NCBI RefSeq assembly: GCF_006442545.2
Contig: NZ_CP083952.1
Span: 2,473,501 to 2,537,500 of the forward strand
DNA length: 64,000 bases
Direction of reading: 5' to 3'
From: Mesorhizobium sp. B2-1-8
GTDB lineage: Bacteria > Pseudomonadota > Alphaproteobacteria > Rhizobiales > Rhizobiaceae
Part shown: one piece after another, positions 35,866 through 63,936 of the stretch
Position numbering within the stretch: the stretch's first letter is position 1
Layout: each line of letters starts with the position of its first letter
Made by a program: the position numbers and the translations under genes
The notes under the pieces: generated by a model
The model's database searches: none
What the model was told of the DNA's origin: nothing
Seen by the model: the letters and a program-made list of their open reading frames with translations, nothing else

Positions 35866-35879
35866 TTGACCCGCATCAA
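35866..35879. promoter_or_regulatory. FixK/FNR-type box upstream of the SQR gene
   Basis: TTGACCCGCATCAA fits TTGA-N6-TCAA with one mismatch to the perfect palindrome. It is centred 111 bp before the SQR ATG. Confidence 0.6.
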
Positions 35880-35983
35880 GTCGCAACCGGTCGCAAGGGC
35901 GCAAGATGAGCCAATGTCGCTGTCTGCGGCAGCGGCAAACATCGGCTCTGCACGCAAGCACCGCCGCAATGGGAGGATAGAGC

Positions 35984-37291
35984 ATGGCGCATGTTGTGGT
36001 CCTGGGTGCCGGGCTGGGTGGTACCATCATGGCCTACGAGCTTCGCGACGAACTGGCGAGCGAACATCAGGTTTCCGTGGTCAACAATGGCAGCCACTAT
36101 TCATTCGTGCCGTCCAACCCCTGGGTCGCCGTTGGCTGGCGCGACCGGCAAGCGATCGAAATCGACCTTGTTCCGGTGCTGGCGCGGCGCAACATCGGCT
36201 TTCATCCGCAAGGTGCCAGGCGCGTTCACCCGGTCGAGCGCACTGTGGAACTCAATGACGGCTCATCCGTCACCTACGACTATCTGGTGATCGCCACCGG
36301 CCCCGAACTGGCATTCGACGAGATCGAAGGCTTCGGGCCTGAGCACAATACCCAGTCGGTCTGCCACATCGATCACGCACTCAAGGCCAAGACGGCCTTC
36401 GATGCGCTCGTCGCCAAGCCCGGTCCGGTCGTCATCGGCGCGGTCCAGGGCGCGTCCTGCTTCGGGCCCGCCTATGAGTTCACCTTCATTCTCGACAAGG
36501 CGTTGCGCGACGCCAAGGTGCGCGATCGCGTCCCAATGACCTTCGTCACCTCGGAACCCTATATCGGCCATCTCGGCCTCGACGGCGTTGGCGACACCAA
36601 GGGCCTGCTCGAGAGCGAGATGCGCCAGCATCACATCAAGTGGATCTGCAACGCCAAGATCGACAGGGTCGAGCCGGGCAAGATGTTCGTCCAGGAAATC
36701 GCCGACGATGGGTCGGTCAGACAGGCGCATGAATTGCCGCATGCCTTCGCCATGATGCTGCCGGCGTTCCGTGGCGTGGCGGCGGTGCGCGGCATCGAAG
36801 GCCTCACCAATCCGCGCGGCTTCATCCTCGTCGACAAGCACCAGCGCAACCCAGCCTTCCCCGACATATTCGCGGTCGGCGTCTGCGTTGCCATCCCGCC
36901 GATCGGCAAGACGCCGGTTCCGGTAGGCGTGCCCAAGACCGGCTTCATGATCGAATCCATGGTCATCGCGACGGCCCGCAACATCGGCCGGCTGGTCAAA
37001 GGCATCGCGCCCGATGCCCAGGGCACATGGAATGCGGTTTGTCTCGCCGATTTCGGCGATTCCGGCGTGGCCTTCGTGGCGCAGCCGCAGATCCCGCCGC
37101 GCAACGTCAACTGGTCGTCTTCCGGCAAATGGGTGCACACCGCCAAGGTCGGCTTCGAGAAGTATTTCCTGCACAAGATCAGGACCGGCAAGGCCGAGCC
37201 CTTCTACGAACGCCTGGTGCTGCAGGTGCTGGGCATCGACAAGCTCAAGCAGATCAAAGTCGAGGCATCCGTGGATGTCCCGGCTGACTGA
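35984..37291 (+). CDS. sqr: Sulfide:quinone oxidoreductase
   Basis: A 435-aa FAD enzyme. The dinucleotide-binding motif VVVLGAGLGGTIMAYEL is at residues 4-20, ATGPELAFDEIEGFG at about 104, and a second FAD region at AFPDIFAVGVCVAIPP. Cysteines at 127, 159 and 353 coincide with the three cysteines described as essential in Rhodobacter capsulatus SQR. It oxidises sulfide to sulfane sulfur and passes electrons to quinone at the membrane. GGGAGGA precedes the ATG. The SqrR/BigR-type repressor is divergent, and a FixK-type box lies in the gap. Confidence 0.88.
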   Translation: MAHVVVLGAGLGGTIMAYELRDELASEHQVSVVNNGSHYSFVPSNPWVAVGWRDRQAIEIDLVPVLARRNIGFHPQGARRVHPVERTVELNDGSSVTYDYLVIATGPELAFDEIEGFGPEHNTQSVCHIDHALKAKTAFDALVAKPGPVVIGAVQGASCFGPAYEFTFILDKALRDAKVRDRVPMTFVTSEPYIGHLGLDGVGDTKGLLESEMRQHHIKWICNAKIDRVEPGKMFVQEIADDGSVRQAHELPHAFAMMLPAFRGVAAVRGIEGLTNPRGFILVDKHQRNPAFPDIFAVGVCVAIPPIGKTPVPVGVPKTGFMIESMVIATARNIGRLVKGIAPDAQGTWNAVCLADFGDSGVAFVAQPQIPPRNVNWSSSGKWVHTAKVGFEKYFLHKIRTGKAEPFYERLVLQVLGIDKLKQIKVEASVDVPAD

Positions 37292-37393
37292 CCAAGGTAA
37301 GCCGGCGATGGGGCCGGTTGGCGGGCAAGCGACAACCAGCGGTCGCCTGCGGCAAATTCAACACGAGCCCTTGCAGTCAATGATAAGTATTCG

Positions 37394-37407
37394 TATATTA
37401 AAATATA
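37394..37407. promoter_or_regulatory. AT-rich palindrome, probable SqrR/BigR operator
   Basis: TATATTAAAATATA is a perfect 14-bp palindrome in an unusually AT-rich island of this GC-rich region, 24 bp upstream of the DUF2892 gene. BigR-type repressors bind AT-rich palindromes of this kind. The gap upstream of the repressor itself (35760-35800, with CATATTAA and ATAATATTAG) is similarly AT-rich. Confidence 0.6.
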
Positions 37408-37430
37408 ATCATATGCAAATGGAGATGACA

Positions 37431-37631
37431 ATGTCCATCGACCGTTCCGTTCTGGCCTTCGCGGGCACCATGGTGCTTTTGTCCGTCGCGCTTACCGCTT
37501 TTGTCTCGCCGCTGTTCGTCTGGCTGACGGTCTTTGTCGGCCTCAACATGCTGCAATCGGCGTTCACCGGCTTCTGTCCGGCGGCGATGATCTTCCGCAA
37601 GCTCGGCGTCAAGCCTGGATGCGCGTTCTGA
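37431..37631 (+). CDS. DUF2892 small membrane protein
   Basis: A 66-aa protein with two hydrophobic helices. It ends with the DUF2892 signature GLNMLQSAFTGFCPAAMIFR and a GVKPGCAF tail carrying two cysteines. The domain occurs as the membrane part of YgaP-type rhodaneses and beside sulfide-detoxification genes. GGAG lies 6 bases upstream of the ATG. The next gene starts 11 bp downstream, so it heads the adaptor/RND operon. Confidence 0.85.
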   Translation: MSIDRSVLAFAGTMVLLSVALTAFVSPLFVWLTVFVGLNMLQSAFTGFCPAAMIFRKLGVKPGCAF

Positions 37632-37642
37632 GGAAGGTCAAG

Positions 37643-43461: not shown

Positions 43462-44406
43462 TCAGCATTTTGCAAGAAGCAGCGGGCAGGCCGAAGCGCT
43501 GCCTTCGAACCATGTACCGCGCTCGCCTTTAACAATTTGCACGGCGTCATCGAGTTGGCCGATCGCGGCTGGCTTGCCCGTCGCGTCAACGAATTCGATC
43601 GCGGCGGCGACCTTCGGCCCCATCGAGCCGGCGGCAAAATCTCGTCCGGATATCTCCGTCGTGGCTAGCCGGCGGAGGGCACGGGCTGTGGCGGTGCCAT
43701 AGTCGGCATAAACGGCATCGACGTCGGTCAGCAGCAGAAGCATGTCGGCCTTCAATTGGCGGGCAAGAAGGGAACTCGCCAGATCCTTGTCAATGACGGC
43801 TTCCACGCCGCAGAGGCTGCCGTCATCCATGGCCATCACCGGAACTCCACCGCCGCCCGTGCAGATGACGATGACGCCGCGCTCGACAAGGAACGAAATC
43901 ACGGAGGCTTCCAGAATCTCAAGCGGCCTCGGCGAGGGGACGACGCGGCGCCATTTGTCGCCATCGGGCGCGATCGGCCATCCGCGTTCCGCGGCAAGCC
44001 GAAGCGCCGTCGCCTTCTCGTACACTGGGCCTATCGGCTTGGTTGGTCGAGCGAAAGCCGGGTCGCGAGGATCCACCCGCACTTGCGTCAGCAGGGTGGC
44101 GAACAGCCGCTCCTTGAGGAGATTGCCGAGCTCCTGTTCAATGACGTAGCCGATCATCCCCGCGCTTTCGGCGCCAAGTACGTCGAGTGGAAAGGCTCCG
44201 CCGTCAGGATGGGCTGCCGCTGCTTGCAGCGCGAGCAAGCCCACCTGTGGGCCATTGCCATGCGTGATTACGATCGAGTGCCCTTCGCCGATCAGCGCCG
44301 CCAACACGGATGCGGCACGCTTGATGTTGGCGCGCTGGTTGTCGGCGGTCATCGGCTCGCCGCGCCGCAGCAACGCGTTCCCGCCAAGCGCGGCCACGAT
44401 AAGCAT
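43462..44406 (-). CDS. arcC: Carbamate kinase
   Basis: A 314-aa amino-acid-kinase-fold enzyme: [20 protein letters not shown] at the start, [15 protein letters not shown] at about 48, [10 protein letters not shown] at about 205, [20 protein letters not shown] and [14 protein letters not shown]. It makes ATP and CO2/ammonia from carbamoyl phosphate and ADP, the energy-yielding last step of the arginine deiminase pathway. The ATG lies one base after the arcB stop; a TTG overlapping arcB is less likely. Last gene of arcDABC. Confidence 0.93.
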
Positions 44407-44407
44407 T

Positions 44408-45409
44408 TCAGTTGCCAATCGTCGCGACTAGCAGGGCCTTGATCGTATGCATGCGATTTTCCGCCTGATCGAATACGATCGACGCGTCCGACTCGAATAC
44501 CTCGTCGCTGACCTCCATGCAGTCGATGCCGTATTCGCGCGCAATGAATGCACCGATCTCGGTATCGGTATCGTGGAAAGCCGGCAGGCAATGCATGAAT
44601 TTCGCGCGCGGATTGCCGGTGGCCGCCATTACGTCGCTCGTCACCCGGTAAGGTGTCAAAAGGCGAATGCGCTCGGCCCAACCGGATTTGTCCTCGCCCA
44701 TCGACATCCAGACATCGGTGTAGACGAAGTCGGCATCCTGGACGCAGTCCTTTACGTCTTCGCCCAATCTGAAGCGCCCCCGGCTGTTTTGCGTCAGGTC
44801 CCTGATGTGAGCGCTGAACGCCTCGTCGGGCCAGAGTTCGCTGGGCGAAGCAATGCGCATGTCGATACCGACTTTGGCCGCGCCCAGCGCTAGTGACATC
44901 GCGACGTTGTCGCGCCCCTCGCCGACGAAAGCGACAGTCATGTCCGAGAGGTGCTTATGGGTGAACTCGCGCATGGTCATGAAATCGGCAAGAATCTGCG
45001 TCGGATGCGCTTCGTCCGTCAGGCCATTGTAGACCGGCACCCCGGCATAGGTGGCCAGCACTTCCGCCTGTTGCTGGGCAAAACCGCGATACTCGATGGC
45101 GTCATACATCCGGCCAAGCACACGTGCGGTATCCTTCATGGATTCCTTATGGCCGATATGGCTTCCGCTCGGACCGAAATACGTGACATGAGCGCCCTGA
45201 TCGTAAGCCGCCACCTCGAACCCTGTGCGCGTGCGCGTCGAATCCTTTTCGAAGATCAGTGCGATATTTTTTCGGGAAAGGCGCGGCACTTCGTGTCCAG
45301 CGTGCTTGGCTGCCTTGAGATCCGCTGCAAGCCTCAACAGAAATCGAATCTCGTCACCTGTCAGATCGTCCAGCGTGAGGACGGACCGGCCGTGCAGGTT
45401 GATCGACAT
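44408..45409 (-). CDS. arcB: Ornithine carbamoyltransferase, catabolic
   Basis: A 333-aa transcarbamylase with carbamoyl-phosphate site [20 protein letters not shown], the [18 protein letters not shown] loop and ornithine/active-site motif HCLPAFHD. In this operon it runs backward, splitting citrulline into ornithine and carbamoyl phosphate. Catabolic use is inferred from the arcA and arcC neighbours. A 13-bp gap separates it from arcA. Confidence 0.94.
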
Positions 45410-45422
45410 TGTGAAGTTCCTT

Positions 45423-46637
45423 TCAGATTGGGTCGCGCGCCAAGGGACAGGTCATGCAGTGCCCGCCGCCGCGCCCACGGCTGAGTTCGGCGCCCTCCAC
45501 GGTAATTACTTCTATTCCAGCCCTGCGCAGAAGGGTGTTGGTGTAGACGTTTCGGTCGTAACCGATGACCACTCCCGGCTCGATCGCGACGACGTTATTG
45601 CCGTCGTCCCATTGTTCCCGCTCTGCTTCATAGCGGTCGCCTCCCGTGGCGATGATCCGCAGCGACTTCAATCCGAGCCCGTCGGCGACAACAGACGTGA
45701 ATGGCTCTCTTTCCTCCGTTACCTCGACTGTCGCGTCTCCGTCACCGGGTCGCAGCGAAAAGGAACGCAGGCGTTCGACAACGGGCGGATACATGGTGAC
45801 CAGGTCGCGATCACAGAAAGTGAAAACGGTGTCGAGATGCATGAAACCGCGATCTCTCGGCATCAGGGCTGCAATCACACGGGTCGCTTCGCCGCACGCG
45901 AACAATTTTCGTGCAAGGTCGCCCACCGCTTGCGGCGTCGTGCGTTCTCCCATGCCGACGAGCACCGTTCCACCACCGATCGGCATGACATCCCCACCCT
46001 CCAGGCTATTACTGGTTCCCAGGTCAGGCGACACGAAGGGAATGCTACTGTCTCGAAAGCGAGGATGAAACCGATACACCGCTTCGACATTGGCGGCTTC
46101 CGGGCGGCGCGCGGCCCAGTACATGGGATTGACCGAGACCGAGCCATGGATCCAGCAGGAACTGTCGCGCGTGAAAAGCTGGTTCGGCAACGGTGGCAGC
46201 ACGAACTCCTGAGGGGCGAACGTCCTGCCGGTCAGTCCCGCGGGCTCGAAGGGTAGCTCGGCACGAGCGATGCCGCCGACAAGCACGGTCGCGAGGTGAT
46301 CCGATGGCATTTCATCGAGCCAACCCCGCATTTCGCCGACCATGTCGAGGCCGACGACACCGGCGTGAATCCTGCGGTCGAGGAGCCAATCGCGGGCTTT
46401 GGCCAGGCTCATCGTCTCTGCCAGGAGTTCTCCGAAGGAATGCACCAGCACACCGCGTTCACGCAAGGCATCGACGAAGACATCGTGCTCCTGGCGGGCC
46501 CGCTTGACCCACAGCACGTCGTCGAAAAGCAGCGCCTTGCAGTTTTCCGGTGTCAGCCTGCGCAGGCTGAGATCGGGTCGATGGACCATCACCTCGCGCA
46601 GACGGCCGACTTCGGAGTGGACACCCAGCTTCGTCAT
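45423..46637 (-). CDS. arcA: Arginine deiminase
   Basis: A 404-aa protein matching ADI throughout: [20 protein letters not shown] at the start, [20 protein letters not shown], the catalytic block [14 protein letters not shown] and the nucleophile region [13 protein letters not shown] with Cys394. It converts arginine to citrulline and ammonia in the cytoplasm. It sits 12 bp after the antiporter gene. The pathway gives one ATP per arginine and raises pH, useful without oxygen. Confidence 0.95.
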
Positions 46638-46649
46638 CGAGCGCTCTCT

Positions 46650-52079: not shown

Positions 52080-52093
52080 TTGATCCGCATCAA
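52080..52093. promoter_or_regulatory. FixK/FNR-type box upstream of the 128-aa protein gene
   Basis: TTGATCCGCATCAA is a perfect TTGAT-N4-ATCAA palindrome centred 56 bp before the minus-strand ATG at 52030. Confidence 0.75.
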
Positions 52094-52427: not shown

Positions 52428-52883
52428 TCAGGCGGCGACAGTCGGCAGGCGGTCGCGAACCCACCTGACGATCTGGCCCGCCGTCATTGCACCGGATGTG
52501 CGCGAAAGTTCGCGCCCGCCATGGAACAGGATCATGGTCGGGATGCCGCGAATGCCGAGTCTGGCCGCGACAGCCTGCTCGTTGTCGGAGTTGAGTTTGA
52601 TCAGGCGAACATGCGGCTCAAGCTCGTTGGCCGCGGACTCATATGCCGGAGCCATCATCTTGCAGGGTCCGCACCAGGGCGCCCAGACGTCGACGACAAC
52701 CGGCAGGCTGCTGCGCGCGATCTGACAATCGAAAACGCGGGTGTCGACGTCTTCCGGGTGACCCGAAAACAACCTGTTCCTGCACTTTCCGCATTTCGCC
52801 TCCATGGCGTTGCGGGCCGGCGGCAGACGGTTGACCCCGCCGCATTTGCTGCAAACCACCAGATTTTGCTGTGCCATGGCCAT
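52428..52883 (-). CDS. trxC: Thioredoxin 2 (TrxC) with N-terminal zinc motif
   Basis: A 151-aa protein. The N-terminal ribbon has two CxxC pairs (VVCSKCGGVN and AKCGKCRNRL) that bind zinc, followed by a thioredoxin fold with active site VWAPWCGPCKMMAPAYES and cis-Pro IRGIPTMILF. It reduces disulfides in the cytoplasm, especially under oxidative stress. It lies 23 bp downstream of the P-type ATPase gene on the same strand. An ATG two codons in (52877) is also possible. Confidence 0.92.
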   Translation of the reverse strand: MAMAQQNLVVCSKCGGVNRLPPARNAMEAKCGKCRNRLFSGHPEDVDTRVFDCQIARSSLPVVVDVWAPWCGPCKMMAPAYESAANELEPHVRLIKLNSDNEQAVAARLGIRGIPTMILFHGGRELSRTSGAMTAGQIVRWVRDRLPTVAA

Positions 52884-52906
52884 TCACCGAACTTGTTCTC
52901 GACCCA

Positions 52907-54760
52907 CTATGCGCGCCACGGCTGTCCATCGCCAAGGGCGCGTAACGCGTTCAGGATAACCGCAACGTCAATACCCTCCTGAATCAGCGCACCGGCAACG
53001 GGCGTGATCTGCCCCATGGCCGCGGCCGCCATGGCCAGTCCCGACAGCGCCAGCCCTGCAATGATGCTTTGCAAGGCGATCGCCCGCGTTCGCCTTGCAA
53101 TGCGCACCGCATCGGCTACCGGCTGCAGCCGGTCGGTCAGAACGATGACGTCGGCTGCCTCGGAGGAGGCGGTCGCGCCACGTGCTCCCATGGCTACACC
53201 GACCGTTGCGGCCGCCAGGGCAGGGGCATCGTTGATACCGTCGCCGGCCATCATCGTCGGCGCCAGGGCCTTCTCGGCTTCGACAGTCGCGATTTTGTCG
53301 GCAGGGGTCGCGTCGGCCACAATGGCGTCGAGGTCGAGCAAAGCAGAAATGCGCTTCGCCGCCACGACATCGTCGCCTGTGAGCATGATCATGCGTGCAA
53401 TGCCGGCGGAGCGCAGCTTGCCGAGTGCACTCCGCGCATCGACACGCAGGGCGTCACCGAACGTGAATATACCGGCAAGCCGTCCGCCGAGTGCTACAAA
53501 AACCCTGAGCACCGGTTCGTCCCGGTATCTTTCTTCACCGCTCTTCGCCCAACACGGCAATGGCTTGTTGGCCAGCACGAGAGCCCGGGATCCCGCCGCG
53601 ATAGCCATGTTCTCGACCCGGCCGTTCATTCCCGCACCGCGATGCTCTCGCACATCATGCGGATGCGAAAGCATCAGATGTCTGCCGCGCGCTGCCCGGA
53701 TGATCGAGTCGGCGAGAACATGGTGCGAGGCCTGCTCCAGGGACGCCAACAGTTGCAGCAGATGGTCGGCATCGCGGCCGGGTTCAGCTTCAATCTCGAT
53801 GAGTTCGGCGCCACCGATGGTCAAGGTCCCCGTCTTGTCAAAGATCGCCGTCCTAACTTGGGCGAGGGCCTCCAGAGCCGCCGAGCCTTTCATCAGGATG
53901 CCGGCGCGCGCGGCGCGCGATACGCCGCCGATGAAGGCAACGGGCGCCGCGAGGATGAGCGGGCAAGGCGTCGCGACGACCAGCACGGCGAGCGCCCGGA
54001 TTGGATCGCCGGAGATGTACCAGGCGGCACCGGAAACCAGCAAAGTGGCTGGCAGCAGGAAGAGAGCAAAGCGGTCGGCCATGCGAATAAAGGGCGCTTT
54101 GACGGTCTGCGCTGCCGCTACCATGCGCACGATCGCGGCATAGGTGCTCTGGTCCGCGCGTGCGGAGGCCCGCATGCTGAAGGTTTCGCCCGCATTGATG
54201 GTTCCGCTGCGTAGCATGTCGCCCGCGTTTCGCCGCTCCGGCAGCGGCTCTCCGGTCACCGCCGACTCGTCCAGCGATGCCGACGGGTCGAGCAAGATGC
54301 CGTCCACCGGTAGCAGCTCGCCGGCGCGCACCAGGAGAGTGTCACCGACAGCGACCTCTTCAATCGGGATCATTTCTGTTCCATTTGCCGACTTGCGATG
54401 CGCGACACGCGGCGAGCGATCGGTAAGTGCTTTGAGACTCCGCTCGGCGCGGCCGCGGGCAAAGTCCTCGAGCACTGTGCCGCCGGCATACATGATCGCG
54501 ACCACCACCGCCGCCAGCGGCTGGCCGAGCAGCAGCGCAGCCGACATCGACACGAGCGCAATCGCGTCCACGCCGAAGCGGCCGATCCAGAAATCACGCA
54601 GAATGGAGATGGCGAGAGCCCCGACCACAGGCAAGGTCGCGATCGTCCAGATCGTGTCGGCCTCAAGCGGGCCGACCCTGGTTTGCCGAACGCCGAAGCC
54701 AATGGCGAGGCCCAGAATGGCGATAGCCAGCAATGCGCGGCGAAGGGTGGACTCGTTCAT
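52907..54760 (-). CDS. P-type ATPase, heavy-metal (P1B)-like
   Basis: A 617-aa ATPase. It has the actuator motif SAVTGEPLPERR, ion-channel motif VVATPCPLILAAPVAF, phosphorylation site IFDKTGTLTIGG and hinge MMAGDGINDAPALAAATVGV. Six to eight helices are expected. There is no N-terminal metal-binding domain, the usual CPC/SPC is TPC, and the HP motif of P1B pumps reads SHHVLADSI. Ion specificity is therefore uncertain (Zn/Co/Fe-type or other). ATG at 54760 follows a GGAAGA site. It is the first gene of an operon with trxC. Confidence 0.85.
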   Translation of the reverse strand: MNESTLRRALLAIAILGLAIGFGVRQTRVGPLEADTIWTIATLPVVGALAISILRDFWIGRFGVDAIALVSMSAALLLGQPLAAVVVAIMYAGGTVLEDFARGRAERSLKALTDRSPRVAHRKSANGTEMIPIEEVAVGDTLLVRAGELLPVDGILLDPSASLDESAVTGEPLPERRNAGDMLRSGTINAGETFSMRASARADQSTYAAIVRMVAAAQTVKAPFIRMADRFALFLLPATLLVSGAAWYISGDPIRALAVLVVATPCPLILAAPVAFIGGVSRAARAGILMKGSAALEALAQVRTAIFDKTGTLTIGGAELIEIEAEPGRDADHLLQLLASLEQASHHVLADSIIRAARGRHLMLSHPHDVREHRGAGMNGRVENMAIAAGSRALVLANKPLPCWAKSGEERYRDEPVLRVFVALGGRLAGIFTFGDALRVDARSALGKLRSAGIARMIMLTGDDVVAAKRISALLDLDAIVADATPADKIATVEAEKALAPTMMAGDGINDAPALAAATVGVAMGARGATASSEAADVIVLTDRLQPVADAVRIARRTRAIALQSIIAGLALSGLAMAAAAMGQITPVAGALIQEGIDVAVILNALRALGDGQPWRA

Positions 54761-54860
54761 GCGATGTCTTCCGATTTGGTCGATGCTCGCCAATTTTCGT
54801 CAGCGCTGACGGGCGCGTCGAACTCGGGCAACAGCTAACCGCAAGAACTGGAGAACGCTT

Positions 54861-54874
54861 TGATCCAACGCAAC
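54861..54874. promoter_or_regulatory. FixK/FNR-type box between the ATPase and acyl-CoA synthetase genes
   Basis: TTGATCCAACGCAA fits TTGA-N6-GCAA. It is centred 57 bp before the GTG at 54925 and 107 bp before the ATPase ATG. It shares an extended TTGATyCArCGCAAyGAACG with the box at 61273. Confidence 0.65.
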
Positions 54875-54924: not shown

Positions 54925-57558
54925 GTGACGATCCGAAATCTCGAACATGCGTTCGCGCCAAAGTCGGTTGCTGTCTTCGGCGCGTCGGCGCGTGACGGTT
55001 CCGTTGGCCGGGTTGTCTTCGACAACGTCGTCAGCGGCGGATTCGAGGGCGAGATCTGGCCGGTCAACCCGAAATACCTGCAAGTGGAGGGTCGGCAATG
55101 CTATCGCAACGCGGCCGATCTTCCGGGTGTCCCGGACCTTGGTGTCATCGTCACGCCGCCCGAGACAATTCCAGGCATCGTGCGCGACCTTGCTGAAAAG
55201 GGCACGCGGGCGGCGGTCGTCATCACCGCCGGCCTTACGCGCGAAAACGGCCTGCGCCAGGCGATGCTCGATGCGGCCAAGCCCACGCTCTTTCGCATCA
55301 TCGGACCGAATACAGTCGGGCTGATGATCCCGCCCGTCAAACTTAACGCCGGATTTGCGCATATGGCCGCCAGGCCCGGCAACATCGCGCTGCTGTCGCA
55401 ATCCGGCGCCATCGCCACATCGCTGATCGACTGGGCGGCGGACAACAATGTCGGCTTCTCGCAGATCGTCTCCCTGGGCGACATGGCGGATGTCGACGTA
55501 GGAGATTGTCTCGACATGCTGGCGGGGGATGCTCGAACACGCGCCATCGTGATGTATCTCGAAACGATTCCCAATCCGCGCAAGTTCATCTCGGCCGCGC
55601 GTGCGGCGGCGAGGATCAAGCCGGTGATCGCAATAAAATCGGGCCGGCACGAGCAATCGGCCAAAGCGGCCGCGACCCATACCGGCGCGCTATCGGGCGC
55701 CGACCGCGTCGTCGATGCGGCCCTGCTGCGCGCTGGCATACTGCGCGTCAAGGGCCTCACGGAGTTGTTCGATGCGGTTGAAACGACCGCTCGTTTCGTC
55801 CCGCTCGAACGAGCCCGCGTCGGCATCGTCACCAATGGCGGCGGCGCCGGCGTGCTTGCTGTCGATCAACTCATCGAAGGCAACGGGGAATTAGCCGAAC
55901 TTTCGCCAGGAACGATCGCCGGCCTGGATGCCGTCCTGCCGAGCACATGGTCCCACGCCAATCCTGTCGACATTATCGGTGACGCCCCGCCAGAGCGCTA
56001 TCGAGGCGCGATCGAGGCCGTCGCGGCCGATGCCGGGACCGACGTCATCCTGGTCATGAACTGCCCGACTGGGCTCGGCTCGCCGCTCGCTGCGGCAAGC
56101 GCGGTGGCGGCGCTCGTGCAAGACGGCAAGATTGGCGGCAAACCTGTCCTGACCTGCTGGCTTGGCGGATACACGGCGCGTGAAGGGCGACGTGTTCTTC
56201 AGGATGCCGGTATTGCCAGCTTCGAGACGCCAGCGGATGCCGCGATGGCCGTCTCCAACCTCAGCGAATGGTCACGAGCCCAGCGGGCCCTGCTGCGCAC
56301 GCCGTCGAGCCAGGGCGAGGCCGCCACGAGCGGCCGAGAAGCGGTGCTTGCCGTATTCCGGCAGGTTGCCAAGGAAGGTCGGCGAATGCTGACCGAAACC
56401 GAAGCCAAGGCGGCGATTTCGGCCTACGGCATCCCGGTACCCGAAACGATCATCGCGAGATCTCCTGCCGAAGTGGGGAAGGCGGCCGGAGGGCTTCTCA
56501 GGACATCCGAGCAGGTCGTCGTCAAGCTGCTGTCAAAGGCGATCTCGCACAAGTCGGACATTGGCGGAGTGGTGCTTGGCATCGCCACCGCTGCTGCCGC
56601 CGGCGAGGCCGCATACTTGATCGAGGCGCGTGTGCACGAGCACGCACCGCAAGCAGACATTGAAGGTTATGCCGTTCAGCCAATGGTGGTGCGGAAACAG
56701 GCCCAGGAACTCATTCTCGGCATGAACCAGGATCCGATCTTCGGCCCGGCCATTCTGTTTGGAGCCGGCGGCGTCGCCGTCGAGGTAATGGATGATACGG
56801 CGATCGCGTTGCCGCCGCTCGATGACATTCTTTCCCGTGACCTGATCGGGCAAACGCGGATTGGCCGCCTGCTGGCCGGATTCCGCGACCGCAAGCCGGC
56901 CGATCGGCAGGCGATCATCGCAGCGCTCAACGGCCTGTCGCAGATGATCGTCGACTTTCCGTGCCTCGTCTCGATCGATATCAATCCGTTGCTCGCCGAT
57001 ACCGCCGGCGTGATCGCAGTCGACGCTCGCATCGAGATCGACCCGGAACAGGTGGACGAGCCGGGTCCGAATCCGGCGCTTACCATCAGGCCTTATCCGT
57101 CGGGTTGGGGAAAAGAGTTTTCGGCCGACGGCATGTGTTACCATATCCGGCCGATCAAGCCGGCCGACGTCGCGCTCTATCCCGAATTCCTTGCCAGGAT
57201 TTCGCCTGATGATCTGCGCCTGCGTTTTCTGTCGCCACGCAAAAGCTTCTCCGACCAGATGTTGAAGCGGCTCACCCAGCTCGACTACGATCGTGACATG
57301 GCTTTCGTCGCGCTGGAGACGAGCTCCGGCGCGCTGGCGGGTATCAGCCGGATATCTTGCGATCCAGACCACGCCGTCGCCGAATACGCCTTGCTGGTGC
57401 GTACGGATATACAGGGTCATGGCCTGGGCTGGGAATTGCTCAGGCAGCTCGTCGATTATGCGAAAGCCGATGGGATCGGACGGATCGAAGGGACAATACT
57501 TGGCGAGAATACGAAGTCGTCGGTGAACTATCCGCAAGGCTTTGATCTGGTTTCCTAA
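54925..57558 (+). pseudogene. ADP-forming acyl-CoA synthetase/GNAT fusion, 3' end cut by an IS element
   Basis: The ORF encodes 877 aa. A CoA-binding domain (about 5-130, FAPKSVAVFGASARDGSVG) is followed by ligase domains (about 150-450), an ATP-grasp domain (about 485-705, LTETEAKAAISAYGIPVPET) and a GNAT domain from about 735. Such Pat/AcuA-like fusions acetylate proteins such as acetyl-CoA synthetase, or make acyl-CoA. After codon 864 (ENTK) the frame enters the IS and ends with 13 foreign residues. The missing 29 codons (MLAMCREFGFS...) lie beyond the element at 59074-59163. GTG start with AGGAGA upstream. The truncated GNAT part is probably inactive; the ligase part may survive. Confidence 0.88.
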
Positions 57559-59066
57559 TCGGCGAGGAATGCGGGAATAGCGTTGCAACATTTGCGGTGT
57601 CTGGTTGCCGTTTTCTTGCAATTCGATTTGACGATTCCCTTGTGCGCCGATGCGTGATTCACTCGTTTTGGCGGGCGAATCGAGGGGACGGCGAATGTCC
57701 AGGCCACGCGAGAAGCGCGAGACGGGAGAGCAGGACCTGTTCCGCTCCAGGCTCGATCAGATCATCAACATGAAGCACGAGTTGGTGCGGCTGGCGCAGG
57801 CGATCGACTGGCCGGTGCTGGAGGAGCGTTTCGGCGCGGTCTATTCGGACGGTCCTGGCATGCCGCCCTTGCCGACGCGACTGATGGCGGGCCTTGCGAT
57901 CCTGAAGCACACTTTCGACTTGTCGGACGAGGAGCTGTGCGCCCGCTGGGTGGAGAACCCCTACTTCCAGTATCTGTGCGGTGAAGAGTTTCTTCCGCCA
58001 CGAGCTCTCCTTCGAGCGCTCATCGATGACGCGCTGGCGCCAGCGCATGGGCGAGGAGCCGATCACGGCGCTCCTGCAAGAAAGCCTGGCGGTGGCGGTC
58101 AAGAGCGGAGCGATGAAGCCGGCCGATACGCGCCGGGTGATCGTCGACACGACCGTGCAGCCGAAGAACGTGATGTTCCCCACCGACGCCAAGCTCGTCA
58201 ATCGGGCGCGCGAGCGGCTGGTGCGGCTGGCCAAGAAGGCGGGGCTCGATTTGCGCCAGACCTACGTGCGGGTCGGCAAGCTGGCGCTGATCAAGCACCA
58301 GCGCTACGCGCACGCCAAGCAGTTCAAGCGGGCCAACAAGGCGCTGCGCAAGCTCAAGACCTATCTCGGCCGCACCATTCGCGACATCTCCCGCCGGATC
58401 ACCGGCCAAACGGACCTCGAGGCGAGCTTCAAGTGGCCGCTCTACCAGGCCTCGGCGGTTCTGGAGCAACGTCAGCGCCAGCGCGGCCGCAAAATCTACA
58501 GCCTGCACGCCCATGAGGTCGAGTGCATCGGCAAGGGCAAGGCGCATGCCCCTTACGAGTTCGGCGTCAAGGTCTCGATCGCCACGACGCTCGAACGCTC
58601 GAAGGGCGGCCAGTTCGCCCTGCACGCTCAGGCACTGCCCGGCAATCCCTATGACGGCCATACGCTCGCGACCGTTATCCCCGACATGGAAAAGACCATC
58701 GGCAACGAAATCGGCCGCATCCTCGCCGACGCCGGATATCGCGGCCACAACGCACCTGAAAGCCACAAGCTCAGGGTCTTCACCGCCGGCCAGAAGCGCC
58801 GCGTCACACCTGCCATCAAGCGTCAGATGCGCAGGCGATCGGCAGTCGAACCCGTCATCGGCCACATCAAGGCCGAGCACCGCATGGGCCGCAACTACCT
58901 CGCCGGCGAACAGGGCGACGCCATCAACGCCATCCTCGCCGCCGCCGGCTACAACTTCTCGCTCCTGATCAAATGGTTCAGGCTGCTTTTGTGGCTTCTC
59001 ATCACAGCACTCCAAAGCCGCCCCAGATCCAGCGCAGCCTGACCCACTTCATTGTTCACGGACGAC
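57516..59066 (+). mobile_element. IS5-like insertion sequence inserted in the synthetase/GNAT gene
   Basis: About 1551 bp with terminal repeats GTCGTCGGTGAAC (left) and GTCGTCCGTGAAC (right, complement), 12 of 13 identical. A direct repeat TACGAA (57510-57515 and 59067-59072; the next G also matches) flanks it as target duplication. Removing the element and one repeat restores the host frame exactly. The family is judged from the transposase; the ends are as drawn here. Confidence 0.88.
57695..59042 (+). pseudogene. IS5-type transposase with frameshift
   Basis: The first frame (MSRPREKRETGEQDLFRSRL ... FQYLCGEEF) and the second (FFRHELSFERSSMTRWRQRM ... to 59042) join at one extra T in TTT at 57989-57991; without it the text reads CGEEFFRHEL. 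The second part holds the catalytic-type VIVDTTVQPKNVMFPTDAKL, ILADAGYRGHNAPES and RRRSAVEPVIGHIKAEHRMG. The intact protein would be about 448 aa. Ribosomal frameshifting cannot be excluded, but the position and the clean single-base fix favour inactivation. Confidence 0.8.
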
Positions 59067-59186: not shown

Positions 59187-60740
59187 TCAGGAGGCTGTGC
59201 GCAGGGTTTCGGACGCATCGCTCTCGGAGTGCCTTCTCAATTCCAAGACGATGTCAGCGAGCTTTCGATCGACGTTGATTCTTCGCCAGCCAGACTGGAC
59301 GGTATTTCGCAGCAATTGCCGCGAGAGGATATCTATCGTGGCGTCGGAAGGCCCCCCCTTGCGCTCGTCGACCCGCTGCCAAAGAACGAGCGGGTCCGCT
59401 TCCAGCCAAAATCCGTGGAAGTCGACAGCCCGGCTGCGCGCCGCTTTCTCGATCCGCTCATGATCGGCTGGTCTGTCGAAAACGGCATCGGCCACGACCG
59501 AACCGCCCTGCGAAAGGATCAAGCCCGCCCGCCATGCCATTTCGCGGTAGACGCGATCGGAGACTTCCGGCCGATAGGCTTTGTCCGGCAGCTTAGTCTC
59601 GGCCGGCACTCCGTGCATGGCCTTGCGGATACGGTCGCTTTCGACAATGCGCGCGCCGGGCGGCGCACCGACATGGGCGGCGAGCGCCTCGGCAATAGTC
59701 GTCTTGCCGGAGCCACTGAGGCCACCGATGGCAACGAGCCGCGGAGGCTTTTCCTGGAGCAATGCTTGCGCAAGGTCGAAATAGGATCTGGCTTCGGCAC
59801 TCAATTTGTCAGTATCGGCACTGCCTTCCTCGACCTGGGTGGCAGTAATGTGCGCGCGCACTGCAGCCCGCACCGCCATGAAAAAAGGCAGCAGGATGAA
59901 CCCGTCCTCGTCGTCGGCTTCGTCGAGATAGCGGTTCATCACAAGATTGGCGAGCTGCGGAAAGCCGCGGTGCCACAGGTCCATCAACAGGAAGGCAAGG
60001 TCGTACAGGACATCGATGCTGGCGATCTGGTCGTTGAATTCGATGCAATCGAAGAGGCGGGGCTCGCCGTCGAAAAGGCAGATGTTGCGCAGATGCAGGT
60101 CGCCATGACACCGGCGGATCTTGCCCGCGGCTTCGCGGCGGTTGAGCAATTCGGAATGGCGGGCGAGTTCTGAGCAGAAGGCCCCGGCAAAGGTCTCGAT
60201 CTCTGCTTTTTTGAAGACATGACTGGTGGCGAAGCTGGCCTCGTTGATATCAAGCACACCCGCCAGGTTGAACGAGCCGCTGCCATCATGAACCGTCGGC
60301 GCGGCACGGTGGTATCCGACGATCATGCGTGCAACAGCGGTCATCAGTGCCGGCGTCAATTCTCCCGCGGTGGCCATACGATCGAGAAGCTTGGACTGAT
60401 CAAAGCGGACCATCTCGATCGCTGCGTCGACCACTTGCCCCGCGCCATCAAAAGCCAATTTGCCGTCGGCTTCGCGTGTGATGTGACGCACCCCGAGGTA
60501 AAGGCCGGGTGCGGTCTTCGAGTTGAGTTCCACCTCTTTCTCGCAAGCGGCCAGCCTGAGGGCTGACGTCGAGAAATCGACGTAGGGCAGCTTGACCGCC
60601 CGCTTCATCTTGTAGGCGCTTTGGCCAACGAGGAAGATGCGTGAAATGTGGGTCTCGATGGCCTCGACCGGCCCCGTGGCGCCATAGGAGGCCGGATCAA
60701 AAAGGAACTCGGCTGCGGCTTGCTGGTCGTCGACGATCAT
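59187..60740 (-). CDS. Aminoglycoside-phosphotransferase-like/AAA kinase fusion protein
   Basis: A 517-aa two-domain protein. The first part (about 1-300) is APH/choline-kinase-like, with catalytic CHGDLHLRNICLFDGEPRLF and DCIEFNDQIASIDVLYDLAF. The second (about 335-500) is a P-loop kinase with Walker A IGGLSGSGKTTIAEALAAHV and ESDRIRKAMHGVP. Both suggest phosphoryl transfer to a small molecule; the substrate is unknown. The ATG at 60740 has GGGAAGG 6 bases upstream; two earlier starts in the frame are less good. It lies 49 bp after the cytochrome c gene, probably the same operon under the box at 61241. Confidence 0.85.
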   Translation of the reverse strand: MIVDDQQAAAEFLFDPASYGATGPVEAIETHISRIFLVGQSAYKMKRAVKLPYVDFSTSALRLAACEKEVELNSKTAPGLYLGVRHITREADGKLAFDGAGQVVDAAIEMVRFDQSKLLDRMATAGELTPALMTAVARMIVGYHRAAPTVHDGSGSFNLAGVLDINEASFATSHVFKKAEIETFAGAFCSELARHSELLNRREAAGKIRRCHGDLHLRNICLFDGEPRLFDCIEFNDQIASIDVLYDLAFLLMDLWHRGFPQLANLVMNRYLDEADDEDGFILLPFFMAVRAAVRAHITATQVEEGSADTDKLSAEARSYFDLAQALLQEKPPRLVAIGGLSGSGKTTIAEALAAHVGAPPGARIVESDRIRKAMHGVPAETKLPDKAYRPEVSDRVYREMAWRAGLILSQGGSVVADAVFDRPADHERIEKAARSRAVDFHGFWLEADPLVLWQRVDERKGGPSDATIDILSRQLLRNTVQSGWRRINVDRKLADIVLELRRHSESDASETLRTAS

Positions 60741-60789
60741 GGCCGGCCTTCCCATTGTATCCTGCGAAATTCGTTTCCTCGATCCGCGC

Positions 60790-61188
60790 TCATTGCTGCA
60801 ATGTCTGGACATAACCTGCCAATTCATGAATGCGTTCCCTGGTGACGATTTCGCCTGCGTTCGGGCCGTATCTCTTCACGTCGGCAGGCAGGAACTGGCT
60901 GCCCCATACTGGCATGTCGCGCTCGCCATGCGCCGGCACCATCGCGCGGCCGTCGATCACGGCATAGACACGCCAATAAGGGAATTCGCCACCATTGCGC
61001 CTGGAGATGCGCGTCAGGTCGCTCGGCCGCTTCAACAGTTCGTCGCCCAGCGGTCCATCGCCCTTGCCGTCCGGGCCATGGCAGACGGCGCACGAGTTCA
61101 TGTATTCGGCCTTGCCGCCGCCGAGGTCCTGAGCACTGGCCGTATGGAAGGTCATGCCTGCGAGAACCGCCGCGACCAGAAGTTTCAT
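60790..61188 (-). CDS. Periplasmic class-I cytochrome c
   Basis: A 132-aa protein with a signal peptide (1-19, ending ASA), one heme site CAVCH (Cys33, Cys36, His37) and a distal Met in RDMPVWGSQF. It also has ELLKRPSDLTRISRRNGGEF, common in small rhizobial c-type cytochromes beside oxidases. It shuttles electrons in the periplasm. A perfect FixK-type box is centred 59 bp upstream of the ATG. Confidence 0.92.
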   Translation of the reverse strand: MKLLVAAVLAGMTFHTASAQDLGGGKAEYMNSCAVCHGPDGKGDGPLGDELLKRPSDLTRISRRNGGEFPYWRVYAVIDGRAMVPAHGERDMPVWGSQFLPADVKRYGPNAGEIVTRERIHELAGYVQTLQQ

Positions 61189-61240: not shown

Positions 61241-61254
61241 TTGATGCGGATCAA
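61241..61254. promoter_or_regulatory. FixK/FNR-type box upstream of the cytochrome c gene
   Basis: TTGATGCGGATCAA is a perfect TTGAT-N4-ATCAA palindrome, 53 bp upstream of the cytochrome c ATG on the minus strand. Confidence 0.78.
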
Positions 61255-61272: not shown

Positions 61273-61286
61273 TTGATTCAGCGCAA
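61273..61286. promoter_or_regulatory. FixK/FNR-type box upstream of the UspA gene
   Basis: TTGATTCAGCGCAA fits TTGA-N6-GCAA and is centred 82 bp before the ATG at 61362. Confidence 0.65.
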
Positions 61287-61361: not shown

Positions 61362-62198
61362 ATGGCGTTCAAGACACTGCTTACGGTTACCGGACCGAAC
61401 CAGGGCGAGGGCGATCTGAAGCTCGCCGCCAATCTTTGCGAACAGGTCGGCGCCCATCTCTCCGTGCTCGTCCTCGAACTGGCAGCACCGCCCTCGGGCG
61501 GCGAGTATGCTGCTGTCGTCTCGCCTGCCTGGCTCGAGGAACGGCAGGCCGAGTTGAAAAGGCTCGAGAAAAGAATTTCTGACGTCGCCGGCTTTCTCTC
61601 TCAGAGCGCCATATCGGCTGATCTGAGCGACGACTATCCAGACACGGGATGGGCGGACGATGTCATCGGAAGGCGTGCCCGTTACGCTGATCTGACCATT
61701 CTGGGACCGGATCTGCTGGCAAGCCATGCGCTGAAGGATAAAGTCATCGAGGGCACTCTGTTCTCATCGGGGAAGCCCATTCTGATCGTTCCCGAGGGCT
61801 CGCCCCCGACGCTGAAGCCGAAACGCATCCTCGTTGCATGGGACGCCCGCCTCGAGTCGTCGCGCGCCGTCCGCGAGTCTCTCGATATGCTGAAAGGCGC
61901 CGAAGATGTTCGCCTTGTCATCGTCGATCCCATTGAAGATGAGTTCCATCATGGCGAGGAGCCGGGTGCAGATGCCGCGGCCTATCTTGCACGGCACGGC
62001 GTGAAGGTTACGGTCGAGCGGCTGCCGAGCGCGAAGCATTCGGTTGCCGACGTGCTTCGCCAGCATGCCGGCGACGTTGCGGCCGAGTTGATGGTCATGG
62101 GCGCGTATGGTCATTCCCGATTGCGCGAGCGGATTTTCGGCGGGGTCACCAAGTCGATGCTCGCGGGTCAATCGCTGCCGGTCTTGATGGCGCGATAG
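61362..62198 (+). CDS. Universal stress protein with two UspA domains
   Basis: A 278-aa protein with two tandem UspA-like domains. The second is the better conserved: KPKRILVAWDARLESSRAVR at about 150 and the nucleotide-binding G-2x-G-9x-G(S/T) region MVMGAYGHSRLRERIFGGVT near the end. Such proteins accumulate in hypoxia, starvation and oxidative stress. AGTGAGGAGG lies upstream of the ATG. It is divergent from cytochrome c across two FixK-type boxes and is followed by a strong terminator. Confidence 0.92.
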   Translation: MAFKTLLTVTGPNQGEGDLKLAANLCEQVGAHLSVLVLELAAPPSGGEYAAVVSPAWLEERQAELKRLEKRISDVAGFLSQSAISADLSDDYPDTGWADDVIGRRARYADLTILGPDLLASHALKDKVIEGTLFSSGKPILIVPEGSPPTLKPKRILVAWDARLESSRAVRESLDMLKGAEDVRLVIVDPIEDEFHHGEEPGADAAAYLARHGVKVTVERLPSAKHSVADVLRQHAGDVAAELMVMGAYGHSRLRERIFGGVTKSMLAGQSLPVLMAR

Positions 62199-62213
62199 CA
62201 ATTCAACGGTAGG

Positions 62214-62248: not shown

Positions 62249-62275
62249 CATTTCTCGCAAGACTTGATGGTGCGA

Positions 62276-62722
62276 CTACTCGCTTGCTTCCCGTCCGGAT
62301 AGCTGTTCGATCAGGATCCGAAAAAAAACGTGCGGTGCACTGTCGGCTGTGGGAGGAACGACGGGCTTGAGCGCGCCAGGTTCCCACCAGTCGGCGTGCT
62401 TGCTCAAAACGGACCAGGCATGATCCCGCTGAAGCTTGTGGCCGATCCGGTCAGGCAGTTCTTCGTATCGGCCGTCGACAATGACACTTTTCCATCCTCG
62501 CCCCTGGCCATGTTCATCGACCTGAACGGACACCAGCGGATTGGCCCGCATCCATTCGATCTTTTTGCCCGGCATGGAAAACGCGTAAAGATGAGCATCC
62601 GAATGGGCGTAGTAGAAGGGCACGACGTAGGGCTGCCCATCCTTTGCGCATGCCAGGCGACCCACGCGATTGGCCGTCAGCAATCTGGTACATTCCAAAG
62701 CAGAAAGCGTGCGGATCTGCAT
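62276..62722 (-). CDS. Pyridoxamine 5'-phosphate oxidase-family flavin protein
   Basis: A 148-aa split-barrel protein. It has MQIRTLSALECTRLLTANRV and GRLACAKDGQPYVVPFYYAH, LYAFSMPGKKIEWMRANPLV, and GWKSVIVDGRYEELPD, typical of small FMN- or F420-like binding proteins. The function is probably flavin binding or reduction; the substrate is unknown. AGGAGAT lies 8 bases before the ATG at 62722; the frame is open upstream through the phosphoribosyltransferase gene but not credible. Third gene of the DUF2267 operon. Confidence 0.85.
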   Translation of the reverse strand: MQIRTLSALECTRLLTANRVGRLACAKDGQPYVVPFYYAHSDAHLYAFSMPGKKIEWMRANPLVSVQVDEHGQGRGWKSVIVDGRYEELPDRIGHKLQRDHAWSVLSKHADWWEPGALKPVVPPTADSAPHVFFRILIEQLSGREASE

Positions 62723-62741
62723 TAGTGCGATCTCCTGTTCT

Positions 62742-63428
62742 TCACGGCTTTTGAACTGGGCCGGAAACGTGCCGCTGGCCAGTTTTGTACGGTTGCGCAG
62801 CCTCGTCCATAGCGGAGACAACGTCGTTGTCGGAGAGCTGCGGGAACCGCAGATAGTGGTGGCCCAAGGCCCCGAACTGTCCTGGCTGGCTAAGGCAGAC
62901 CACATGGTCCGCTTCCTGTTCCAGCGCGGCGACCGTTTCGGGCGGCGAAACAGGAACAGCCACGACGATCTCCCTCGGTGACCGGCGCTTGAGGGCGCGG
63001 ATCGCGATTTTCATGGTCGTACCGGTCGCGGCCCCGTCATCGACGATGATCGCCGTCTTTCCCGCTATCGACATCGGTCTAATCTTACCACGATAGGCAA
63101 CGCGCCGGCGTTCGAGTTCCGGACGCTCATTTGTAATCAAGACACGCAAGGCGTCGTCGTCGAGGCCATAGGTCTCGACAATTCCACGGTTCAACACGAC
63201 CTCCCCAGGATCGCCATCGACGATTGCGGCGACAGCCAGCTCGGGATTGCCGGGGGCGCCCACCTTGCGGACGATCAGCAAGTCGAGAGGAGCGTTGAGG
63301 GCTTTGGCCACTTCCACTGCGACGGGCACGCCGCCACGCGGCAATGCCAGTACGATGGGCCGATGCAGTTGAAGCCTGCTCAGTTCCAGGCCAAGCTTCA
63401 CTCCAGCATCTTCCCGGTCACGGAACAT
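62742..63428 (-). CDS. Phosphoribosyltransferase-domain protein
   Basis: A 228-aa PRT-fold protein with an N-terminal HRPIVLALPRGGVPVAVEVA, LLIVRKVGAPGNPELAVAAI at about 50 and the PRPP-binding loop AIIVDDGAATGTTMKIAIRA at about 125. Proteins of this kind often lie beside universal stress genes; their substrate is unknown. The start is 3 bp from the DUF2267 stop, so the two are co-transcribed. Confidence 0.88.
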   Translation of the reverse strand: MFRDREDAGVKLGLELSRLQLHRPIVLALPRGGVPVAVEVAKALNAPLDLLIVRKVGAPGNPELAVAAIVDGDPGEVVLNRGIVETYGLDDDALRVLITNERPELERRRVAYRGKIRPMSIAGKTAIIVDDGAATGTTMKIAIRALKRRSPREIVVAVPVSPPETVAALEQEADHVVCLSQPGQFGALGHHYLRFPQLSDNDVVSAMDEAAQPYKTGQRHVSGPVQKP

Positions 63429-63431
63429 CGG

Positions 63432-63866
63432 TCAATCCACCGGCCACAGTTTTCGCAGCGACTTCTTCATCGAGTTTCTGACCTGCACGATCTCACCATG
63501 CGAAAGGTGACGGTCGAGAAGCTTGAACACGGCACTGATCGCGACATCGAAATCGATCTCGTCATCGTAGCCGAAACTGTTTCTGACGCTGACAATGAAG
63601 TCGCGCTTGGTGCGCTCATGCGTTGACGCCGAGGGGTTCCAGCCTTCGAAGTAGAGGCCACGGACCAAAACAGGCAGTTGCGCCGAGAGATCGGCCATTT
63701 CAGCCGGCGACAGCCAGTCCCGCACCGTGTGCAGGACAGACCTCAGCAGACGACACGCGCTCGACTCGCTCCAGCAGAGGTCCTTGGCGAGCTCCTTGAC
63801 CCATTGTTGCGCCTGCTGGCCAGCGTGCGTGAAGTCAGCAAAGGATGTGTGGGAGATATGACCCAT
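63432..63866 (-). CDS. DUF2267-domain protein
   Basis: A 144-aa helical protein matching DUF2267: TFADFTHAGQQAQQWVKEL-type start, LLRSVLHTVRDWLSPAEMAD, LPVLVRGLYFEGWNPSA and VFKLLDRHLSHGEIVQVRNS. The function of the family is unknown; it is frequent in rhizobial stress clusters. GAGGAG lies about 8 bases before the ATG at 63866. First gene of a three-gene operon with a FixK-type box upstream. Confidence 0.9.
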   Translation of the reverse strand: MGHISHTSFADFTHAGQQAQQWVKELAKDLCWSESSACRLLRSVLHTVRDWLSPAEMADLSAQLPVLVRGLYFEGWNPSASTHERTKRDFIVSVRNSFGYDDEIDFDVAISAVFKLLDRHLSHGEIVQVRNSMKKSLRKLWPVD

Positions 63867-63922
63867 GGCGATGCTCCTCGAAGATTTGAACTCCATTCTC
63901 AGGCATCGAAAGGCCTTGAGCA

Positions 63923-63936
63923 TTGAGCAGGATCAA
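63923..63936. promoter_or_regulatory. FixK/FNR-type box upstream of the DUF2267 operon
   Basis: TTGAGCAGGATCAA fits TTGA-N6-TCAA and is centred 63 bp before the ATG at 63866. The remaining bases to the window end show no gene. Confidence 0.65.

Follow-up and report, generated by a model that had tools for sequence, protein, structure and literature searches.

The closest described systems are the rhizobial FixLJ–FixK/FnrN anaerobox regulons (PMC4999443, PMC7888657). In Rhizobium leguminosarum, oxygen at about 1% induces FixK via hFixL–FxkR and FnrN follows nearer anoxia (PMC7888657), and the published box motif does not distinguish the two activators (PMC4999443). The lxa locus of Burkholderia cenocepacia holds about 50 genes raised at low oxygen, including six genes for universal stress proteins (Usp), a BON protein and a cytochrome c (PMC6127331, PMC9104464). 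It has been compared in print with DosR (PMC6127331) and is reported to be necessary for anoxic persistence (PMC9104464); a FixK-like CRP regulator under FixLJ is also known in Burkholderia (PMC5234846). Here we analyze a stretch of 64,000 nucleotides (nt) of Mesorhizobium sp. B2-1-8 (NZ_CP083952.1, positions 2,473,501 to 2,537,500; the window, numbered from its first letter), which carries a series of FixK/FNR boxes and a FixK-type gene. We conclude that this is probably a FixLJ–FixK/FnrN anaerobox regulon packed into one low-oxygen island of about 66 kb (about 34.5–101.2 kb in window coordinates), of which the window is only the left part.

Comparable systems have been described before in other bacteria. 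With the rhizobial regulons the island shares the box, the FixK and FnrN types, the FixL heme PAS domain and FixJ, and fixNOQP/fixGHIS and heme-synthesis targets are common to both (PMC4999443), whereas here they are packed together with arginine deiminase and stress operons into a single block, and no nifH was found in the genome. Like lxa, it is a contiguous low-oxygen block with several Usp (two, against six), a BON protein and cytochromes c (two here). In contrast to lxa, the block itself encodes sensor, relay and activators and includes cbb3 oxidase genes; the likeness is drawn at the level of gene types. A diverged relative is the pRL9 cluster of Rhizobium johnstonii 3841, where fixN/O, FixK9a, hFixL9, hemN, FixK9b, FxkR9, Usp, APH/AAA and BON genes lie close together and anaeroboxes are present; it differs in having hFixL–FxkR instead of FixLJ, in order and most content, and in lacking arcDABC in the 41.5 kb viewed. 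The DosR/OsdR regulons of Actinobacteria (PMC5069765, PMC5309233) are likewise Usp-rich hypoxia clusters with PNPOx and hemerythrin. Their operator is different, and the activators here are of the FNR type with FixL as identified sensor; no DosR-type circuit was identified in the island, which was not scanned for DosR/OsdR boxes. The original prediction had likened the locus to dormancy regulons, which is reasonable as an analogy but not new, since it is already in print for lxa (PMC6127331). Among the matches listed in searches of open-licence papers, on islands of this type in Mesorhizobium and on dormancy-type regulons linked to FNR or FixK, we saw none that describes the present island.

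We defined a relaxed box as TTGA-N6-(T/G)CAA, a strict box as TTGAY-N4-RTCAA and a perfect palindrome as TTGAT-N4-ATCAA. The original prediction had placed nine relaxed boxes, three of them perfect, in promoter gaps around a FixK-like gene. All nine were recovered, with a single shift of position from 54861 to 54860; the perfect palindromes are those at 48259, 52080 and 61241, and each box center is 56–131 nt away from the closest start codon that faces it in the operon named. Two relaxed matches had been missed, a perfect palindrome at 6906 and a weak minus-strand match at 55856 inside the gene at 54925–57558. Counting strand matches to the relaxed pattern, the window has 18 where 2.78 are expected, and none of 100 shuffles reached 18. 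The proposed comparison with whole-genome density also bore out the clustering: the nine relaxed boxes occupy a 28.07-kb span in which 0.70 are expected (12.8-fold, Poisson P = 6e-8, or 1.5e-5 after multiplying by 244 spans).

On the forward strand of the 6.87-Mb genome the relaxed pattern has 172 matches (reversed control, 77). Strict boxes number 30 (reversed control, 6), and 14 of them fall within 94.3 kb (window coordinates 6906–101182), which is 1.4% of the genome (34-fold, binomial P = 1e-18). With 6906 left out, 13 of the 30 lie in a 65.3-kb core (35866–101182) that reaches 37 kb beyond the window end. Outside the 94 kb, strict boxes occur at 2.4 per Mb. The genome has 12 perfect palindromes (control, 1), six of them in the 94-kb region. 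Because the spans were picked after the sites were seen, the clustering P values are only roughly corrected. According to our own gene caller (score >20), all 14 strict boxes are intergenic, in a region that is itself 14.4% intergenic; at a looser listing, two small open reading frames (ORFs) that we judged spurious (g085 and g090) overlap the boxes at 65819 and 68202. Boxes of the TTGAT-N4-ATCAA type are found in promoters above background, as in an anaerobox regulon. The boxes and operons inside the window, with the FixK gene, are the following.

34498–35136, minus strand: FixK-type CRP/FNR regulator (Pfam; sequence), 212 amino acids (aa), no cysteine, ETVSR recognition helix
35212–35221, minus strand: FixJ-type site GTAGTATCCC, 76–85 nt upstream of the FixK start
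35866–35879: strict box TTGACCCGCATCAA, between ArsR-type and SQR-like genes
35984–37291, plus strand: SQR-like flavoprotein, family score under the cut-off
43462–48116, minus strand: arcDABC (arginine/ornithine antiporter, arginine deiminase, ornithine carbamoyltransferase, carbamate kinase), from a profile scan, with names from the collinear plasmid described below
48181–48194: strict box upstream of arcD
48259–48272: strict, perfect box upstream of the BON gene
48352–48999, plus strand: triple BON-domain protein
49167–50019, minus strand: PepSY protein and cytochrome b561
50193–50206, plus strand: relaxed box (GCAA end) upstream of the cupredoxin and PepSY genes
50330–51516, plus strand: two cupredoxin-like proteins
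51644–52030, minus strand: 128-aa protein without a Pfam or NCBIfam family
52080–52093: strict, perfect box upstream of the 128-aa gene
52428–54760, minus strand: thioredoxin and metal P-type ATPase
54860–54873, plus strand: relaxed box (GCAA end) between the ATPase and synthetase genes
54925–57558, plus strand: acyl-CoA synthetase (NDP-forming type)–GNAT fusion
59187–61188, minus strand: cytochrome c, then APH/AAA fusion gene
61241–61254: strict, perfect box upstream of cytochrome c
61273–61286, plus strand: relaxed box (GCAA end) upstream of Usp
61362–62198, plus strand: Usp
62276–63866, minus strand: DUF2267, phosphoribosyltransferase and PNPOx-like genes
63923–63936: box TTGAGCAGGATCAA upstream of DUF2267; the core matches, the fifth base does not

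Conservation of the boxes was followed in the best 80 of 461 confirmed APH/AAA relatives, 461 itself being a lower bound. The 80 loci are mostly Rhizobiales, with a few of Rhodobacterales type and one Alcaligenaceae bin. Most are from Mesorhizobium, and some are near-duplicates; the others include Aquibium, Aminobacter, Pseudaminobacter, Aquamicrobium, Ensifer, Rhizobium, Sinorhizobium and Phyllobacterium. Their 1.52 Mb hold 252 strict boxes, against 1 reversed and 3–9 wrong-spacer matches, and 63 of these 80 loci have at least one. A strict box stands within 300 nt upstream of every orthologue of the 128-aa gene (25/25), cytochrome c (22/22), the second Usp (10/10), the small gene at 65942 (7/7), arcD (5/5) and fixL (4/4), and of 31/41 orthologues of the first Usp and 5/10 of BON; the reversed control is 0 in all cases. 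For the first Usp the strict box is that at 61241, and a relaxed box is found in 37/41. The relaxed form prevails, in figures that have no relaxed control, ahead of cupredoxin (strict 1/11, relaxed 11/11), the synthetase (3/32 and 26/32) and DUF2267 (2/13 and 11/13). Boxes are thus kept in the orthologous promoters of arcD, the 128-aa gene, cytochrome c, both Usp and fixL, and conservation is weak for the GCAA-type sites. Over 303 core sites there is an outer preference for C at -2 and G at +15 (0.60), not imposed by the search, which agrees with the published TTGANCNNGATCAANG (PMC4999443). That the FixK/FNR boxes form a non-random, promoter-located and conserved set is supported.

Similar boxes were also seen elsewhere. 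The palindrome at 6906–6919 (TTGATCTACATCAA) is separated from the island by 29 kb and flanked by genes for a GntR-type regulator and a luciferase-like monooxygenase; instead of a FixK site it may be an operator for GntR, and it was not counted in the island. The smaller contig has three strict boxes in 1.4 kb (89582–90939) beside a CRP/FNR-type gene, a second mini-cluster. In one genus genome (G010) strict boxes number 90, and four of its five FixK matches lie at contig ends. At 1501–1514 of another genome stretch (L011), a perfect box lies about 40 nt upstream of a 394-aa ORF. The product presumably resembles CcmI. Published FnrN/FixK targets include ccmIEFH (PMC4999443).

Past the window end eight further strict boxes follow, at 65556, 65819, 68202, 72445, 77069, 96198, 99764 and 101169. 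Pfam and NCBIfam place here 5-aminolevulinate synthase (over cut-off), cytochrome c, FixJ, FixL, Usp, a cation ATPase, DUF6455, CBS-BON, DUF2231, VIT1, a pseudoazurin-like protein, NnrS and a copper nitrite reductase (nirK, over cut-off). The cbb3 part comprises a FixI-type ATPase, FixH, FixG, FixP, FixO and a FixN-type oxidase subunit (Pfam), and hemerythrin, FnrN, a radical SAM protein and an aldehyde dehydrogenase are encoded here as well. Three further names are putative: an NnrR-like regulator, a NirV-like protein (SUMF1-type) and a HemN-like protein (the radical SAM protein). For seven island proteins (79.2–84.2 kb and 85.1 kb) the identity comes from the annotated collinear plasmid, not from the Pfam scan. 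The nearest facing genes of the outer boxes are 5-aminolevulinate synthase (233 nt), the small gene at 65942 (116 nt), Usp–ATPase (72 nt) and fixL (121 nt), DUF6455 (62 nt), fixG (70 nt), fixN (92 nt) and hemerythrin (166 nt), and fnrN (97 nt). The compact FixK island of the original prediction therefore stands as to its box set and its FixK-type protein, but it runs on to about 101 kb and the FixK gene sits at its edge.

The block is located in a 6.38-Mb contig. In 144 kb there is one tRNA only, a tRNA-Met at 4738, far to the left. Both flanking genes tested are accessory (present in 2/25 and 3/25 genomes, own included), so no empty insertion site was defined. At 32307–33329 a Gfo/Idh/MocA-type oxidoreductase gene is probably a pseudogene, since an in-frame stop interrupts its reading frame. 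A symbiotic nitrogen-fixation island was rejected, as no nifH was found in the whole genome (best 29.4 bits against a cut-off of 394.35). NnrR was considered as regulator of the box set and rejected, since nirK, nnrS, pseudoazurin and nnrR have no box within 300 nt. Nitrite reductase was dropped from the direct targets for the same reason, and NnrS and pseudoazurin, in the block but boxless, are not claimed as such.

The protein encoded at 34498–35136 had been described as FixK-like with an E..SR helix, and this holds: its nearest solved structure is FixK2 (E = 1.5e-41, against 2.6e-24 for FNR). Typing of FixK and FnrN used the nearest structure, cysteines and helix, the helix/cysteine scan being applied to these two only; FixK is cysteine-free and FnrN cysteine-bearing, with the E..SR helix, at scores below the family cut-offs. 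The published FixJ-site consensus is GTAGTTTCCC (PMC4999443). Of the FixK loci of the genus, the 30 best (81–100% identical, the present one among them) retain a FixJ-type site at about -85, which reads GTANTNTCCC in 25/30; GTAGTWTCCC with the dyad arm is present in 22/30, and the right arm with the downstream bases in 30/30. A further 169 loci, which overlap in part and total 2.73 Mb, include nine with GTAGTWTCCC; eight of the nine have a FixK orthologue, and the ninth (L060) has no FixK match. This conservation strengthens the case for a FixK-type identification.

The remaining parts of the circuit lie past the window end. FixJ scores above its NCBIfam equivalog cut-off (304.8 against 255). 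The FixL heme PAS domain aligns with solved heme domains, among them 1dp6 (E = 5e-49), with the pocket His and Arg in register; this Arg is the residue that differs in entry 1y28. FnrN has CX2CX7C plus a central Cys, and a strict box lies 97.5 nt upstream in its own promoter. The FixJ site before fixK, the heme PAS domain and FixJ are all present. A FixL–FixJ–FixK relay and a second, direct sensor are thus encoded together with their predicted targets.

On this basis we propose that falling oxygen would leave heme-bound FixL, which would then phosphorylate FixJ. Phosphorylated FixJ would bind upstream of the FixK gene, and FixK in turn would bind the TTGAT-N4-ATCAA boxes ahead of the target operons. 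Closer to anoxia, the Fe-S protein FnrN at the right end would bind the same boxes and its own promoter. This order of the two sensors is modeled on R. leguminosarum, which has hFixL–FxkR rather than FixLJ. The box-bearing operons would feed and protect the slowed cell: arginine deiminase, the cbb3 oxidase and its assembly genes, 5-aminolevulinate synthase, cupredoxin and cytochromes, ATPases, Usp, BON and DUF2267. The clustering, intergenic position and conservation of the boxes, the conserved FixJ-type site, the FixL heme-pocket alignment and the FnrN cysteines are observed, and from them binding, direction of regulation and a role in survival are inferred.

Several observations weigh against this reading, in which binding, expression and survival are predicted from sequence. 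Three of the nine boxes have a GCAA end and are seldom strict in orthologues, the 63923 box is off-consensus, and the 68202 box has no clear target among its facing genes. The nirK, nnrS, nnrR and pseudoazurin genes lack both strict and relaxed boxes within the same 300 nt. The FixJ-type site GTAGTATCCC has one mismatch to the consensus, and its exact form is missing in 3/11 FixK-bearing loci of the other set. Three regulators score under their NCBIfam equivalog cut-offs: FixK (186 of 300 bits), FnrN (228 of 300) and FixL (565 of 850, although this is its best model). The boxes do not need FixK, since strict boxes are present in 25/25 genus genomes examined and a FixK relative (E ≤ 1e-40, some partial) in 93/146. 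Finally, the SQR/RND and BON segments have no match in the collinear plasmid.

The island could be an ordinary rhizobial micro-oxic respiration regulon with attached stress genes and no special role in dormancy or long survival, which we regard as somewhat unlikely. The cbb3 oxidase, heme synthesis and FixK/FnrN targets are textbook members of such regulons (PMC4999443), and the same kind of cluster exists on pRL9. However, boxes also stand at arginine deiminase, Usp, BON, DUF2267 and the APH/AAA operon, in a genome where nifH was not found, and similar gene sets form the lxa locus, for which a need in anoxic persistence is reported (PMC9104464).

The original prediction assigned the regulon to the FixK-like gene. 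FixK remains a candidate but not the sole one, because a cysteine-bearing FnrN with its own box lies at the other end. Some of the set belongs to the micro-oxic respiration regulon well known in rhizobia. It is possible, if in our judgment unlikely, that FnrN is the working activator of the boxes and that the edge FixK serves other genes or merely tunes the response. FnrN lies inside the block behind its own strict box, no strict or relaxed box was found within 300 nt of the FixK gene in this genome, genus genomes for which no FixK relative is listed still have boxes, and a small heat-shock gene of R. leguminosarum UPM791 is FnrN-dependent (PMC11784457). Against this, the FixJ-type site ahead of FixK is strongly kept, and 8/11 FixK orthologues in other loci have an upstream strict box. 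Strict boxes per Mb are higher in genomes with a FixK relative (median 4.6, n = 17) than without (3.0, n = 7; P = 0.003), absence being inferred for five of the seven negatives. The published motif fits both proteins (PMC4999443), and our sequences would accommodate the dominance of either.

The region 33.8–86.2 kb is collinear with 146–193 kb of plasmid pB2-1-1 of Mesorhizobium sp. B2-1-1, at 78–90% nucleotide identity. Present in the window only are 35.3–43.4 kb (the SQR gene, the RND genes identified with Pfam and NCBIfam, and the 35866 box), the BON segment and transposase segments. Transposase genes or remnants in the island are found at 58026–59042 and at 2140–3309 and 4833–5693 of stretch L014. 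The fixNOP, fnrN and nirK part (above about 89 kb) has no match in the pB2-1-1 stretch compared. That stretch (100–229.9 kb) contains 11 strict boxes, all but one beyond 139 kb; tra/trb genes adjoin the block, and the vicinity also encodes phosphoketolase, acetate kinase, nosZ and a further oxidase. PLSDB types pB2-1-1 as non-mobilizable, with MPF_T, which leaves transfer hypothetical. The collinearity, and the accessory nature of the flanking genes, would also fit a local box density that merely descends from a plasmid with FixK-controlled genes, the neighborhood having no functional meaning. We think this rather improbable, as plasmid descent does not account for the continued linkage of sensor, relay, activators and targets in both replicons. 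An origin of the boxes by chance in G+C-rich DNA is favored by the relaxed background (172 against 77) and by the location of at least three of the six perfect palindromes outside the island inside long ORFs. It has practically no probability and is refuted for the strict sites, which exceed the reversed and wrong-spacer controls, are intergenic and are conserved; single relaxed sites may still be chance matches.

The APH/AAA gene served as a marker outside the genus. It has a match in 126 of 397 phylum genomes, and 40 stretches were picked for family spread. These hold 38 strict boxes in 749 kb (reversed control 0; spacer controls 5, 0, 1 and 1). Just 7/40 have a strict box within 500 nt upstream of APH/AAA, and any strict box is present in 12/20 stretches of the own class and 4/20 outside it, so the link between APH/AAA and FNR boxes is mainly alphaproteobacterial. 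In a betaproteobacterium, Cupriavidus metallidurans CH34, TTGATGCGAATCAA was seen shortly upstream of the APH/AAA match on the megaplasmid (L154:9914). The 20 own-class neighborhoods include Usp in nine, synthetase–GNAT in six and a FixK, FnrN or strong FixL–FixJ match in six. In the 20 outside the class, phmmer gave no Usp or synthetase match; a few have weak two-component matches, or BON, CBS-BON, phosphoribosyltransferase, thioredoxin, SQR, cytochrome or ATPase relatives. Such absences mean little, because the search missed annotated Usp genes in L151 and L152. On a Streptomyces plasmid, the neighbors of a relative are Usp, P-type ATPase, nitroreductase, Hsp20 and nicotinate phosphoribosyltransferase genes, and on a Rhodococcus plasmid they are Usp, CBS, acsA and PfkB genes. 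Four other neighborhoods comprise Azospirillum, with Usp and hemerythrin, Tistrella, with nothing of the set, and Cupriavidus and Embleya, which are unannotated. OsdR-like sites number two each in the actinobacterial stretches L152 and L156 and none in L151 (reversed 0), about one per stretch being expected from a composition estimate by hand. A cross-phylum link of the stress core is suggestive and not general.

Tentatively, and with more doubt than confidence, we suggest that the island is a portable, self-wired hypoxia-persistence block, in which FixL, FixJ, FixK, FnrN and many targets are combined in about 66 kb. Much of it (33.8–86.2 kb) may have passed in one piece between a plasmid that carries conjugation genes and a Mesorhizobium chromosome, in at least one genome without nifH found. 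The stress core (APH/AAA, Usp, P-type ATPase, acyl-CoA synthetase/GNAT) might then be a cross-phylum set that FixK/FNR boxes control in Alphaproteobacteria and other hypoxia circuits control in Actinobacteria, and symbiosis would have borrowed its oxygen circuit from the persistence of free-living cells. If the FixLJ–FixK/FnrN reading is true, uncharacterized members such as the 128-aa family (544 relatives at E ≤ 1e-3), the APH/AAA fusion and DUF2267 are placed under a named, testable control site. The compact block could be deleted or moved as a unit and would offer a tractable, non-pathogenic parallel to the lxa regulon of Burkholderia and the DosR regulon of mycobacteria. The rhizobial FixLJ–FixK system would then run a low-oxygen survival programme in a genome in which no nitrogenase gene was found.

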